Assembly: GCA_028290165.1 (NCBI GenBank)
Contig: JAQGKJ010000189.1
Span: forward strand, 1-7,889
Length of the DNA stretch: 7,889 nucleotides
Direction of reading: 5' to 3'
Source: Bradyrhizobium sp.
GTDB lineage: Bacteria > Pseudomonadota > Alphaproteobacteria > Rhizobiales > Xanthobacteraceae
Every line of letters starts with the position of its first letter. The stretch's first letter is position 1. The notes under the pieces were generated by a model. The model did not search any database, was not told the origin of the DNA, and saw only the letters and a list, made by a program, of their open reading frames with translations. Shown piece after piece: positions 2,069 through 7,889 of this stretch. Both the position numbers and the translations under genes were made by a program.

Positions 2069-2503
2069 ATGAAATCCAAACTGGCTTCCGAACACGACGG
2101 TCGGAAGTTCGTTCTGATCCTGGATCAGGGTGAAGAGGCGTTTGCAGCCATGACGGCTTTTGCAAATCAGCAGGCAATCAGCGCGGCGTCGGTCACGGCG
2201 ATCGGAGCGTTCGAGAGCGCCGAAGTCGGGTGGTTTGATCTCGCCGCCAGGCGGTACAATCCGATTTCCGTCGACGAGCAATGCGAAGTATTGAGCCTGC
2301 TTGGTGACATAGCGCAGGGAGACGACGGCAAGGCCAGCTTGCATCTCCACGCCGTACTCGGGCTTCGCGACGGCACAGTGTGGGGCGGCCACTTTCTAGG
2401 CGGCAAGGTTCGACCGACGCTTGAAGTCACGATTGTCGAGACCGCGTCAAACCTTCGTCGCAAGAAGCGAACGGATTTAGGGATCGCGCTGATAGATATT
2501 TGA
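2069..2503 (+). CDS. PPC/DUF296 domain protein (stand-alone)
   Basis: A 144-residue protein made of a single PPC domain (DUF296, COG1661), the domain found next to AT-hooks in plant AHL proteins and as a free small protein in bacteria and archaea. The diagnostic part is the C-terminal half: a LHLHAVLG strand with His92 and His94, then GGHFLGGKV with His108. These are the conserved histidines that bind a metal in some solved members, followed by a PTLEV strand typical of the fold. Family members form trimers; the bacterial function is not established, and no DNA-binding extension is visible here. The ATG at 2069 is preceded by a purine-rich GAGAG around 2056-2061, a modest ribosome binding site. 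It follows the exporter by 74 bases on the same strand and could share its transcript, since no clear terminator separates them. It converges with the alkene reductase gene, 46 bases away. Confidence 0.87.
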   Translation: MKSKLASEHDGRKFVLILDQGEEAFAAMTAFANQQAISAASVTAIGAFESAEVGWFDLAARRYNPISVDEQCEVLSLLGDIAQGDDGKASLHLHAVLGLRDGTVWGGHFLGGKVRPTLEVTIVETASNLRRKKRTDLGIALIDI

Positions 2504-4174: not shown

Positions 4175-4948
4175 CTATTCCGTACGCAACCCTTCGGCAT
4201 TGCTGTTCGCCAAAACATCGCTGTTCTCCAAAGTTCGGCGATGGGCCTTTCCGAATTTCAGGCGAATTGGTGTTTCCGTCAGGCCCTCGCTGGTGATGCC
4301 GTAGAACACCGGCAACGCCAGGAAAATCAGCAATGCCAGTTTCGGTGTCGACAGCCAGACGGTCAGCCCCGCTATCGCGTACAGGATGACGCCAAGCGTG
4401 GCACGGAAGCGCTCCTTCGGGAAAAAGTCCGGATCTACACCGTCCTCGACAAGGTAGGGATGGATGCTCAGGACGTGAAACAGCATGAGCCATGACACGC
4501 ACATGGCGTCGGCGATCGTTGCATACAGGGCGGCCGCCACTCTGGCATCGAATTCATTACCGCTCTGGATGGCTGCGGACAAAAGGGCTGTCGGAAAAGG
4601 GATCAGGGCCGACGTCAGCAGCAGGAAGAGGTTGGCGAGATGAAGAAGGCGGTCGCAGTAACGCACTCTTGCGAACACCGCCCGATGGTTGAGCCATATT
4701 ACGCCCGTGTAGCAAAACGACGCAAGGAAGGCGATGTAGCTCGCCCATTGCGCCACAAGCTTGTCCAACAGCTGGCCGGACGCATATTCCGGACGGACGA
4801 TCTCGGCGACAAGAAGCGTGATAGTGATCGACAGCACGCTGTCGCTGAAGGTCTCAAGCCGATCGGTTTCCGCCAAGCGTACGTGTGGCCACGGCGAATC
4901 CCGCTGGACCCCAAGGACCCGGCCAGTTTTCTGCTTGGTCGCGCTCAT
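4175..4948 (-). CDS. TMEM175/DUF1211 family integral membrane protein
   Basis: Predicted inner-membrane protein of the TMEM175 (DUF1211) family, whose bacterial members studied so far are potassium-permeable channels. With the chosen start it has 257 residues. The family signature at the start of helix 1 is clear: Arg30 followed by Phe34-Ser35-Asp36 in RLETFSDSVLSITITLLVAEI. Further hydrophobic helices lie at about 66-85 (ending WLNHRAVF, also typical), 102-123, 137-163, 183-200 and 203-219, giving six in all. A soluble tail of about 35 residues follows. I chose the ATG at 4948 because AGGTG precedes it; an in-frame ATG at 4984 and a TTG at 4996 would add 12 or 16 residues but lack a good ribosome binding site. 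The gene is transcribed away from the sensor kinase and shares a 216-base control region with it. Channel activity is inferred from family only. Confidence 0.88.
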   Translation of the reverse strand: MSATKQKTGRVLGVQRDSPWPHVRLAETDRLETFSDSVLSITITLLVAEIVRPEYASGQLLDKLVAQWASYIAFLASFCYTGVIWLNHRAVFARVRYCDRLLHLANLFLLLTSALIPFPTALLSAAIQSGNEFDARVAAALYATIADAMCVSWLMLFHVLSIHPYLVEDGVDPDFFPKERFRATLGVILYAIAGLTVWLSTPKLALLIFLALPVFYGITSEGLTETPIRLKFGKAHRRTLENSDVLANSNAEGLRTE

Positions 4949-5034
4949 CGCACCTACAAGCCGATGAAATCCGATTGAAGCCATGACGGGCGTCAATTCA
5001 GGTGGGATTTCCGATCCGGCACGCGTCTGTTCCG

Positions 5035-5164: not shown

Positions 5165-6868
5165 ATGCCTACGTCCATGGAGCACGGCTCCCCTGAGGTC
5201 GGGGGAAGTCATGCCGCGTCGTCGTTTATTTCATGGTTGTTGTCGCCGCAGGACTACATGCCGCACGGCATGTGCTTCCTTTGGCAACCGGAACTGATCA
5301 CGCTTCACGTCGCCTCGGATTCGCTGATCGCGCTTGCCTATTATTCGATTCCGGTCGCGCTGGTCTATTTTGCATTGAAGCGCACCGACCTGGCATTTCC
5401 TGCTATTTTCGTGCTGACGGGTCTCTTCATCCTTGCCTGCGGCACAACGCATATCATGAGCATCTGGACCCTGTGGTTTCCGGACTATCGGCTCGACGGC
5501 GGTATCAAGGCGGTCACGGCGCTGCTCTCCGTCGGAACGGCAGTTGCGATCTGGAAGGTGATGCCGGCGGCGCTGGCGCTTCCGAGCACGGGGCAGCTCG
5601 AGCGAGCGAACAAGCATCTCGGAGAGGAGATCGGCCAGCGGCAACGCGCCGAAGCCGCACTGCGCGAGGCCAATGCGGAACTGGAGCGGCGGGTCGCCGT
5701 TCGTACCAAGGACCTTCAAGACGAAGTCGTTCGGCGGCGGAACACCGAAGAAACGCTCCGCGCCAGCGAGGAGCGTTGGCGCAGCATGTTCGAAGCTTCC
5801 GCGGTCGGCATCGCCGTCATCGACCAGCAGCATCATTTCGCAGCCGCAAACGAAGCGTTTCAGAAGATGATCGGCTACAGCGACGAGGAACTGCGGTCGC
5901 TCGGTCCGCTTGAGATCACGCACGAAGAGGACCGCGAGAGCACAAGGCAGATGATCGAGGATGCACAAAGTGGCAGGCGCCAGGACTACCCCACAGAAAA
6001 GCGATACTATCGCAAGGATGGCAAGCTGATCTGGGTGCGCGTCAGCGCCGTGCGCGCCCTCGACGCCAGCAACATCCTTCAGGGCATCCCCGCCATCATC
6101 GAGGATATCACCGAGCGCAAGCGCGCGGAGGGCGACCTGCTTGACGCGCGGGAAGCGCTCGCGCGCACCACCCGGCTGACCATGATGGGAGAGCTCGCGG
6201 CGTCAATCGCCCATGAGATCAATCAGCCGCTCGGGGCGATCATCATGAACGGCAACGCCTGTGTGCGATTTCTCGGCATCTCGCCGCCCGATCTGGAGGA
6301 GGTCAGGGAGGGGCTCGACGCCATCGTCAGCGACGGCAATCGCGCCAGCGAAGTGCTGAGCCGCATCCGCGCCATGCTGAAGAACGCGACGCCGGAGCAC
6401 GTGCAGATGGATGTCAACCAGGCGCTCACCGAAGTGCTTGCGCTTGCCCGTCACGCGCTGCAGCAACATCGCGTTTCCGTCCAGTCAGACCTTCATTCGG
6501 GGCTTCCGAGCATCATGGCCGATCGGGTCCAGTTGCAGCAGGTCGTGCTCAACCTCGTCATGAACGGCATCGATGCGATGCGGGCGGTTAATGATCGTCC
6601 GCGCATCCTGACTGTCCGATCACAGCTTGACGATCGACGCAACATCGTCGTCAGTGTGGCGGATTCGGGTATCGGTCTCGACGCTACGAACCGGGAACAC
6701 ATTTTCGATACCTTCTTCACGACCAAGTCCGATGGGATGGGGATGGGCTTGGCGATCAGCAAATCGATCATTGAAGCTCATCACGGCCGCCTGTGGGCGA
6801 AACCCAAGGCCCGCTTCGGGACCGAGTTCGCATTTGCATTGCCGTCGTCCGCTGGAGTGAGCCTATGA
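5165..6868 (+). CDS. Membrane sensor histidine kinase with ethylene-receptor-like sensor domain
   Basis: A 567-residue hybrid of a plant-type sensor domain and a FixL-like kinase core. Residues 30-138 form a three-helix membrane domain like that of ETR1: SDSLIALAYYSIP at 51-63, ACGTTHIMSIWTLW at 91-104, and a third helix at about 113-135. Asp52, Tyr59, Ile62-Pro63, Cys92 and His96 match ETR1 Asp25, Tyr32, Ile35-Pro36, Cys65 and His69 with the same spacing; Cys and His hold copper in ETR1. A coiled coil follows (142-200), then a PAS domain (about 201-320, ending in ITERKRAE), a HisKA domain with His350 in ASIAHEINQPL, and a HATPase domain with N box NLVMN at 463-467, DSGIG at 500-504, FFTTK at 517-521 and GMGMG at 524-528. 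There is no receiver. A GGAGATAGG site precedes the ATG. Its stop overlaps the next gene's start. Kinase function is near certain; ethylene as ligand is inferred from residues only. Confidence 0.95.
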   Translation: MPTSMEHGSPEVGGSHAASSFISWLLSPQDYMPHGMCFLWQPELITLHVASDSLIALAYYSIPVALVYFALKRTDLAFPAIFVLTGLFILACGTTHIMSIWTLWFPDYRLDGGIKAVTALLSVGTAVAIWKVMPAALALPSTGQLERANKHLGEEIGQRQRAEAALREANAELERRVAVRTKDLQDEVVRRRNTEETLRASEERWRSMFEASAVGIAVIDQQHHFAAANEAFQKMIGYSDEELRSLGPLEITHEEDRESTRQMIEDAQSGRRQDYPTEKRYYRKDGKLIWVRVSAVRALDASNILQGIPAIIEDITERKRAEGDLLDAREALARTTRLTMMGELAASIAHEINQPLGAIIMNGNACVRFLGISPPDLEEVREGLDAIVSDGNRASEVLSRIRAMLKNATPEHVQMDVNQALTEVLALARHALQQHRVSVQSDLHSGLPSIMADRVQLQQVVLNLVMNGIDAMRAVNDRPRILTVRSQLDDRRNIVVSVADSGIGLDATNREHIFDTFFTTKSDGMGMGLAISKSIIEAHHGRLWAKPKARFGTEFAFALPSSAGVSL

Positions 6869-7269
6869 CCAACAATCAGTCAATCGTCATGATTGTCGAT
6901 GACGACGATTCCATAAGGAAAGCGGTCAGGCGCCTGATGAAATCCTTTGGCCTTGCCGTTGAGACCTTTGCCTCGGCCGAAGAGTTTCTCGACTCGGACC
7001 GGCTGGAGAAAACATCCTGCCTGATCCTGGACGTGCATATGCCGGGCATGAACGGGCTCGAATTGCAGGAGCGCATTGCTGCATCGAGCCATGGGATCCC
7101 GATCATCTTCATCACAGCGTTCAATGACGGTCGTGCGCGCGCGCAGGCGTTGAAAGCTGGGGCAGTCGGCTATCTCCTCAAGCCCTTCGCCGACGAGGAA
7201 CTCCTCAACTGCATTCACACGGCATTGAAACTCCCGGTAGGGGATGCTTCGCAACCCAGACGACAGTAA
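6865..7269 (+). CDS. Receiver-only response regulator (FixJ-type receiver)
   Basis: A 134-residue single REC domain with no output domain. The acidic pocket is Asp12-Asp13, the phosphoacceptor Asp56 lies in LILDVHMPGMNG, the switch Thr is Thr84 in IFITAF, and Lys106 is in LLKPF. Only about 14 residues follow the fold (DASQPRRQ tail), too few for DNA binding. The ATG at 6865 overlaps the kinase stop (ATGA) and has GGAG seven bases upstream inside the kinase gene, so I prefer it over upstream in-frame starts that would lie deep in the kinase gene. Translational coupling strongly suggests it is a direct partner of the kinase. By analogy with other receiver-only proteins it may shuttle phosphate, act as a phosphate sink, or bind a protein target; the sequence does not decide which. 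Confidence 0.94.
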   Translation: MTNNQSIVMIVDDDDSIRKAVRRLMKSFGLAVETFASAEEFLDSDRLEKTSCLILDVHMPGMNGLELQERIAASSHGIPIIFITAFNDGRARAQALKAGAVGYLLKPFADEELLNCIHTALKLPVGDASQPRRQ

Positions 7270-7350: not shown

Positions 7351-7889
7351 ATGGCCTCAGAGCGCGCAGCGGAACGCCGCATCTACATTGTGGACGACGA
7401 TCGCGCATTCTGCATGTCGGTCGAACGGTTGCTGCGCTCGGCGGGTTTGACCGCGGTCTCATATCACTCGGCGTCTGCGTTTCTCAACGCGGTACCGGAC
7501 ATCGCCCACGGATGTGTCCTCCTCGATGTGCGAATGCCGGGAATGGGCGGCCTGGAGTTGCAAAGCAAGCTCAAATCCCTTGATTTCAAACTGCCGATCA
7601 TCGTGATGACGTTGAAAGGCGATATGCAGACCGCGGTGAGGGCGATGAAGGGCGGTGCGGTCGATTTCCTCGAAAAACCCTTCAACGACGAGGGGCTCAT
7701 CGGCGCCATCAATGCTGCCTTCGCGCTGGCCCCGGGGCTGAGCCATGATAGCGAAAGCATCGACGCCGCCCAACGGGTCGCCGCAATGAGCCCGCTCGAA
7801 AGCCAGGTGCTCGACGCGCTGGTCGCCGGGCGCGTGACCAAGCAGATCGCCTATGAACTGGGCATCAGCACGAGAACGGTCGAGGTGCA
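7351..7889 (+). CDS. FixJ/NarL-type response regulator with LuxR HTH, 3' end outside window
   Basis: Two-domain transcriptional regulator, with 179 codons visible and perhaps 25-30 missing. The receiver has Asp15-Asp16, phosphoacceptor Asp59 in LLDVRMPGMGG, Thr87, and Lys109 in DFLEKPF. The LuxR-type HTH begins near 147 (MSPLESQVLDALVAG) and is cut within its recognition region (KQIAYELGISTRTVEV). The receiver layout (AVRAMKGGAVDFLEKPF) is that of FixJ. FixJ has Gly-His-Gly-Asp after the switch Thr; here it is Leu-Lys-Gly-Asp. No ATG, GTG or TTG occurs in frame between 7270 and 7351, which fixes the start; GGCGG lies just upstream. The gene is 81 bases after the receiver-only gene on the same strand, probably in the same operon or with its own promoter. 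It is the likely DNA-binding output of the kinase. Confidence 0.93.
   Translation, partial: MASERAAERRIYIVDDDRAFCMSVERLLRSAGLTAVSYHSASAFLNAVPDIAHGCVLLDVRMPGMGGLELQSKLKSLDFKLPIIVMTLKGDMQTAVRAMKGGAVDFLEKPFNDEGLIGAINAAFALAPGLSHDSESIDAAQRVAAMSPLESQVLDALVAGRVTKQIAYELGISTRTVEV

Follow-up and report, generated by a model that had tools for sequence, protein, structure and literature searches.

The window analysed here, a stretch of 7,889 nucleotides from Bradyrhizobium sp., encodes a membrane histidine kinase that is very likely an ethylene receptor of the bacterial ethylene-binding domain (EBD) type, with copper and ethylene binding predicted from its sequence. The preliminary description had proposed an ethylene-receptor-type N-terminal domain with a copper-ligand pair on this kinase, a proposal borne out both by the residues themselves and by a match of the kinase N terminus to the Pfam family ETR1_N (PF25487; E = 1.2e-36). 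We favour the receptor reading because this match is accompanied by all seven residues of the ETR1 ethylene site and a lysine, kept in 120 of 120 homologues (the best 120 of 1,339 found); because the kinase has an EBD with 61-62% identity to that of AzoEtr1, for which ethylene binding has been published; and because this EBD is better conserved than any other segment, its helices are modelled, the catalytic boxes and receivers appear intact and the order of the kinase and its two response regulators (HK-RR1-RR2) is kept. The features of the window are listed in Table 1.

Table 1. Features of the window (position 1 is its first nucleotide; aa, residues of the kinase; TM, transmembrane).
Feature	Position	Strand	Remarks
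PPC/PCC-domain protein	2069-2503	+	
TMEM175-family protein	4175-4996	-	divergent from kinase gene
EBD-PAS-histidine kinase gene	5165-6868, stop included	+	567 aa
Ethylene-binding-type domain (EBD), PHGxC and three TM helices	5261-5587	+	Pfam, hydropathy, model
TM helices of EBD	5288-5380, 5399-5476, 5486-5578	+	aa 42-72, 79-104, 108-138; model
Pfam ETR1_N match in kinase	5294-5581	+	aa 44-139
Asp52 (ETR1 Asp25)	5318-5320	+	alignment
Tyr59 (ETR1 Tyr32)	5339-5341	+	alignment
Ile62-Pro63 (ETR1 Ile35-Pro36)	5348-5353	+	alignment
Ile89 (ETR1 Ile62)	5429-5431	+	alignment
Cys92 (ETR1 Cys65), presumed Cu(I) ligand	5438-5440	+	alignment
His96 (ETR1 His69), presumed Cu(I) ligand	5450-5452	+	alignment
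Lys115 (ETR1 Lys91, AzoEtr1 Lys98), presumed salt-bridge partner of Asp52	5507-5509	+	alignment
Long helix after TM3, presumed signalling helix or coiled coil	5588-5704	+	aa 142-180; model
PAS domain	5771-6127	+	about aa 203-321; Thr260 at 5942-5944
HisKA	6185-6376	+	phospho-acceptor His350 (SIAHEINQPL) at 6212-6214
HATPase_c	6521-6847	+	boxes intact (DSGIG, FDTFFTTK, GMGMGL)
RR1, single-domain response regulator	6865-7269	+	134 aa; start overlaps kinase stop (ATGA)
RR2, FixJ/LuxR-type response regulator (receiver and GerE)	7351-7887, runs off window	+	

The profile search with the ethylene-binding domain that the preliminary description had suggested scored the ETR1_N match at 125.3 bits, compared with a Pfam cut-off of 27, and both hydropathy and the structure model place three transmembrane helices at the N terminus of the kinase. 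In our alignment, for which we assumed an ETR1 sequence and took Tyr32 to be among its required residues, 7 of 7 ethylene residues are present in the window EBD (D52, Y59, I62, P63, I89, C92 and H96), and K115 occupies the ETR1 K91 column at position His+19, the same as in AzoEtr1. The spacings that had been claimed proved exact (D52 to Y59, +7; on to C92, +33; on to H96, +4), the SIP said to follow the tyrosine is present (Y59-Y60-S61-I62-P63), and the stretch singled out as the sensor, 5255-5570 (aa 31-135), does cover the ethylene-binding-type domain. According to two papers, ETR1 requires seven residues for ethylene; the numbers D25, I35, P36, I62, C65 and H69 come from these papers, as does K91 for the Lys that pairs with the Asp (PMC11819568, PMC6586836). 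Cys65 and His69 are the Cu(I) ligands (PMC6586836). When we scanned the window and 172 loci in stop-to-stop frames no shorter than 80 residues (5,597 frames, 1,046,143 residues), the seven-residue pattern occurred 127 times and the four-residue D-Y-C-H pattern 135 times, all inside domain-bearing frames and neither of them (0 and 0) outside such frames. Shuffling aa 25-142 produced the seven-residue pattern in 0 of 200,000 shuffles and the D-Y-C-H pattern in 9 of 200,000.

A PHGxC motif (P33-C37; window 5261-5284) precedes the first helix. The G, C and W of this segment are found in 45 of 45 canonical EBDs aligned, a set of our own selection, and its Cys sits in the ETR1 Cys6 column when aligned with the assumed ETR1 sequence. 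PHGxC may serve in disulfide formation or as an entry point for metal; in the ETR1 model, inter-chain disulfides are formed by residues 4 and 6 (PMC6586836). The segment varies in divergent paralogues, and that of L144 has no Cys.

Of the 391 genomes sampled from the family, 2 carry a window-type EBD, namely G362 and G384. This count was made over 88 genomes with scores above 100 bits, 78 of them through fetched places (80) and the other 10 by a search with the window EBD, in which the best identity was 49%. Both G362 and G384 contain relatives of MMPL, OYE, TMEM175, kinase, RR1 and RR2 in window order, with other genes inserted between MMPL and OYE and with the TMEM175 gene adjoining the kinase gene (L151 and L152) as it does in the window. 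Identities to the window are 89-90% for MMPL, 86-88% for OYE, 81-83% for TMEM175, 76-77% for the kinase (L120/L151 and L117/L152), 74-75% for RR1 and 61-62% for RR2; no relative of the PPC protein was found in the 19.8 kb of the two stretches. The window, L120 and L117 make up the window-type loci, and the order HK-RR1-RR2 is seen in all 3 of them; RR2 is cut by the window end and is full length in L151/L152. The -4 overlap (ATGA) of RR1, 134 aa long, with the kinase stop is also found in L120 and L117. Both receivers keep the acidic pocket, phospho-Asp, Thr and Lys, as judged by eye. Outside these genomes, a kinase from G646 (L216) that is 60.6% identical over 546 aa is followed by an RR1 relative (58%), at which point the contig stops. 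The G362 kinase is identical at 567 of 567 residues to P0019, a Bradyrhizobium MULTISPECIES protein, and this identity of the nearest relative's product agrees with the alphaproteobacterial host that had been supposed. We regard the window as probably part of a chromosome from the Bradyrhizobium lineage. A promoter scan gave one site, on the other strand, versus 1.1 expected.

Conservation along the kinase is highest in the EBD. Among the best 120 of 1,339 homologues, mean identity to the window was 0.902 in the EBD (120 proteins), 0.819 in the linker (119), 0.765 in the PAS domain (120) and 0.729 in the HK part (113), values that lean toward the EBD because it served as the query and homologues were ranked by EBD score. 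A comparison free of this ranking, between the window and its two syntenic orthologues, gave dN/dS of 0.079-0.161 in the EBD and 0.138-0.296 in PAS and HK. In the same best 120 of 1,339, the PHGxC Cys was kept in every protein together with the seven residues and the lysine, and the column of the phospho-acceptor held His in 117, Ala in 1 and a gap in 2. As a separate matter, the orthologous kinases of L151 (7714-9417) and L152 (7714-9402) differ from each other with a dS of 0.44 in the EBD and 0.08 in the HK part, a contrast that is probably due to recombination or gene conversion within the gene.

The structure prediction that had also been suggested for the sensor domain, run with AlphaFold2 on an alignment of 43 sequences (that of the window included), returned the three transmembrane helices as long helices, with a fourth extending toward the PAS domain (aa 142-180), at a mean pLDDT of 90.5 and a pTM of 0.69. 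A profile search of PDB sequences gave 0 matches, and Foldseek against the PDB gave 212 matches at E <= 10 and none at E <= 0.001. For the ETR1 domain, EPR distances fit the AlphaFold helix arrangement less well than another model (PMC13012798), so our model says little about geometry.

The kinase had been described as FixL-like, which holds for its HisKA-HATPase core and not for its identity. The core looks intact, with the HATPase_c boxes and His350 in place, and the window system resembles FixL-FixJ in having a PAS-HisKA-HATPase core and a FixJ-type regulator, RR2, which matches Response_reg and GerE in Pfam and thus combines a receiver with a LuxR-type HTH. The two differ in that the window PAS lacks the haem His, its Thr260 aligning with the His that we take to bind haem in the true FixL of G362 and G384, and in that the FixL and FixJ scores are under their NCBIfam cut-offs: 176.6 versus 850 bits for the window kinase as FixL, and 214.1 and 217.3 versus 255 bits for the full-length RR2 orthologues as FixJ. 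Given these differences, and since G362 and G384 each encode a true FixL elsewhere, we rejected FixL as the identity of the window kinase.

Comparison of the kinase domain by domain suggests where its sensor came from. Relative to 13 proteins outside its own lineage, the window EBD is 53-64% identical, and PAS and HK, where alignable at length, are 24-29% and 23-33% identical to proteins outside the lineage; within the lineage (L117, L120 and L167), PAS and HK are 57-76% identical. The EBD of the paralogue L142 is 39% identical. For the PAS-HK half, the highest identity among the best 40 plasmid-collection rows listed was to a Cupriavidus necator N-1 PAS kinase that has no EBD (47.7% over aa 199-563), and StyS, in the plasmid-collection rows, matched the window kinase without the EBD at 41.8%. 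Because the EBD finds close matches outside the lineage and the kinase does not, it is likely, on these sequence comparisons, that the EBD was grafted onto this kinase. In other kinases the EBD is joined to different back ends, in the formats EBD-PAS-HK-receiver (L061), EBD-HK-receiver (L071) and EBD-HisKA_2 (L163), and the EBD therefore appears to be a mobile input module, which the window lineage carries on a FixL/StyS-type kinase. A scan of genome contigs gave 14 loci, none above 53% best-segment identity, with L009-L014 matching outside the EBD only.

Bacterial EBD receptors are known, and what is new here is the different kinase lineage and the added LuxR-type regulator. PMC11819568 calls AzoEtr1 of Azospirillum brasilense the first ethylene receptor described in a proteobacterium, in keeping with the earlier remark that few proteobacterial versions had been characterised. 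It reports a protein of 525 aa with the order EBD-PAS-HK and an overlapping 135-aa regulator, AzoRRetr1; AzoEtr1(1-130) in Pichia binds labelled ethylene, the D35A and C75A forms do not rescue biofilm formation, and the receptor affects biofilm, root colonisation and metabolism. The product of our locus L020 is 525 aa long and begins MFGGVEAF, in agreement with the AzoEtr1 length and primer of that source. The window kinase shares with AzoEtr1 the EBD-PAS-HK order, the full set of seven residues and a Lys at His+19, as well as a gene for a single-domain regulator that overlaps the kinase stop (135 aa there, 134 aa in the window). However, the AzoEtr1 PAS and HK are only 24% and 27% identical to those of the window, which does not amount to orthology of the whole kinase, AzoRRetr1 differs in sort from RR1 (best local match 24% over 79 aa), and L020, which spans about 4 kb past the AzoEtr1 kinase, yielded no relative of RR2.

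SynEtr1 of Synechocystis (slr1212) resembles the window system in joining an EBD to a histidine kinase that signals to a response regulator. Its back end differs. It is also a light receptor (PMC11819568). The closest cyanobacterial EBD examined was 64.5% identical to the window EBD. Plant ETR1 has the seven binding residues and the Lys in the same columns and likewise three transmembrane helices, whereas its identity to the window over the domain is 31.8% (assumed ETR1 sequence), its regulators are in separate genes and, of its two N-terminal Cys, the window has one, in the Cys6 column. Predicted EBD proteins with widely varied outputs occur in many proteobacteria, according to PMC7700396, and among the titles and abstract starts that we searched, none described a bacterial ethylene receptor in Bradyrhizobium.

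EBDs are not rare. ETR1_N was found in 130 of the 391 sampled genomes of the Xanthobacteraceae, the family of G001 (128 of 391 over the cut-off, in several kinase formats), in 20 of 289 sampled genomes of the class, in 28 of 79 of the phylum of the cyanobacterium G397 and in 0 of 14 control genomes. D-Y-I-P-I-C-H-K is present in 83 of 110 distinct domains, a set that includes fragments and 20 hand-picked divergent places and so gives no frequency. In an EBD tree of 162 rows and 110 columns, few columns for so many rows, the window type groups with L167 and L163 in sets of 3, 4 and 5 rows (support 100/94, 100/92 and 99/94), and an 89-row clade with the family's other canonical EBDs (99/88) stands apart from it. 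The window type may have entered Bradyrhizobium separately from that clade, as its place in the tree would allow; on the same 110 columns and 162 rows, an AU test did not reject a union of the two (p = 0.228). The tree also holds a derived EBD-kinase clade of the family, of 11 rows (L134-L137, L140-L144 and L148) with 100/100 support and a long stem, in which Arg stands in place of the copper His, Phe in place of Tyr32 and Ala in place of Pro36, and Cys65 is kept in 10 of 11 and lost in L148. These offshoots are unlikely, from their residues, to bind ethylene in the usual way. Since some EBD paralogues lack the copper His, the fold alone is no guarantee of ethylene binding.

It is conceivable, if unlikely, that the EBD binds copper and that the signal is Cu(I) availability or another pi-ligand (alkenes, CO or isoprene-like volatiles), not ethylene. 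The Cys and His point directly to the binding of copper, the PHGxC segment, invariant in G, C and W across the 45 EBDs, might contribute a further metal or redox function, and among the seven window proteins scanned there is no known ethylene gene beyond the receptor-type domain. However, the residues corresponding to D25, Y32, I35, P36 and I62 were kept along with the ligands in 120 of 120 homologues (best 120 of 1,339), and both relatives that have been tested, AzoEtr1 and SynEtr1, are ethylene receptors. The closeness of the PAS-HK half to PAS kinases without an EBD, such as that of Cupriavidus necator N-1 among the best 40 rows, would suit a different arrangement, in which PAS is the real sensor, as in FixL or StyS, and the EBD mainly an anchor and dimeriser. 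We consider this improbable, as conservation is higher in the EBD than in the PAS domain, contrary to what would be expected of an anchor, and the PAS lacks the haem His of FixL.

Counted against the receptor reading were the 31.8% identity to ETR1, the His-less paralogues, the lack of a match among solved structures and the exceptions at the phospho-His. A decayed or chance look-alike without receptor function is scarcely credible, given that the seven-residue pattern is absent from shuffles and from outside the domain, the frames and catalytic boxes are intact, dN/dS is well below 1 in every domain and the operon is conserved.

If the kinase is an ethylene receptor, as we favour, its three-helix N-terminal domain would lie in the inner membrane, presumably as a dimer, with Cu(I) held by Cys92 and His96 and ethylene binding to the copper. 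Asp52 and Lys115 may then relay the change along the third helix and the long helix that comes after it, reaching first the PAS domain and then the HisKA/HATPase core, where the autophosphorylation of His350 would be altered. Ethylene lowers kinase activity in ETR1; for the window kinase we infer the direction of the switch. Phosphotransfer would be to RR1 and RR2 as presumed partners. RR1, which has no output domain, could serve as a phosphate sink, a shuttle or a protein-protein output, and RR2 would act as a FixJ/LuxR-type transcription factor on putative target genes. We give about an even chance to the broader proposal that this Bradyrhizobium EBD, grafted onto a FixL/StyS-type kinase, is a dedicated ethylene-to-transcription switch working through a FixJ-type regulator, separate from the family's commoner EBD kinases, and that the His-to-Arg derived clade senses something else or nothing. 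Should ethylene be bound, a common soil- and plant-associated lineage would sense a plant and soil gas directly and respond by way of regulators encoded alongside the receptor, one of which is a transcription factor. This would be a genetically simple system for asking what bacteria do with ethylene, and the natural variants without the copper His are ready-made controls.

The preliminary description had connected such sensing with nodulation or colonisation. A profile search for NodA gave no match in G362 and a partial one in G384 (25.8 bits, Pfam cut-off 22, profile positions 48-124 of 195), true NodA scoring at least 283 bits in the sampled genomes; AcdS (ACC deaminase) is over its cut-off in both. 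In counts over the 391 family genomes, uncorrected for kinship, AcdS was over its cut-off in 67 of the 88 genomes with a strong EBD (above 100 bits) versus 62 of the 303 others, and true NodA was found in 28 of 88 versus 21 of 303. All 49 of the 49 NodA genomes were also AcdS-positive, and among the 129 AcdS-positive genomes the EBD and NodA were independent (28 of 67 versus 21 of 62, p = 0.37, again uncorrected for kinship). With no true NodA in G362 or G384 and this independence, a tie of the receptor to nodulation is not supported; it could equally well serve the bacterium in soil or in the rhizosphere.

EBDs also occur in shorter frames. Three frames of 212-227 aa (L133:1459-2142, L138:2683-3321 and L139:4668-5336) contain D-Y-I-P-I-C-H, have no Lys in the K91 column and gave no detectable kinase; they would appear to be stand-alone EBD proteins. 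Canonical EBDs are also found in frames of only 211-358 aa in L058, L063, L067 and L072. In L063, from G362, the EBD frame is followed within 10 bases by another that matches both kinase and receiver, and in L058 and L067 a receiver-like frame follows the short EBD frame. These four are possibly split or frameshifted receptors.
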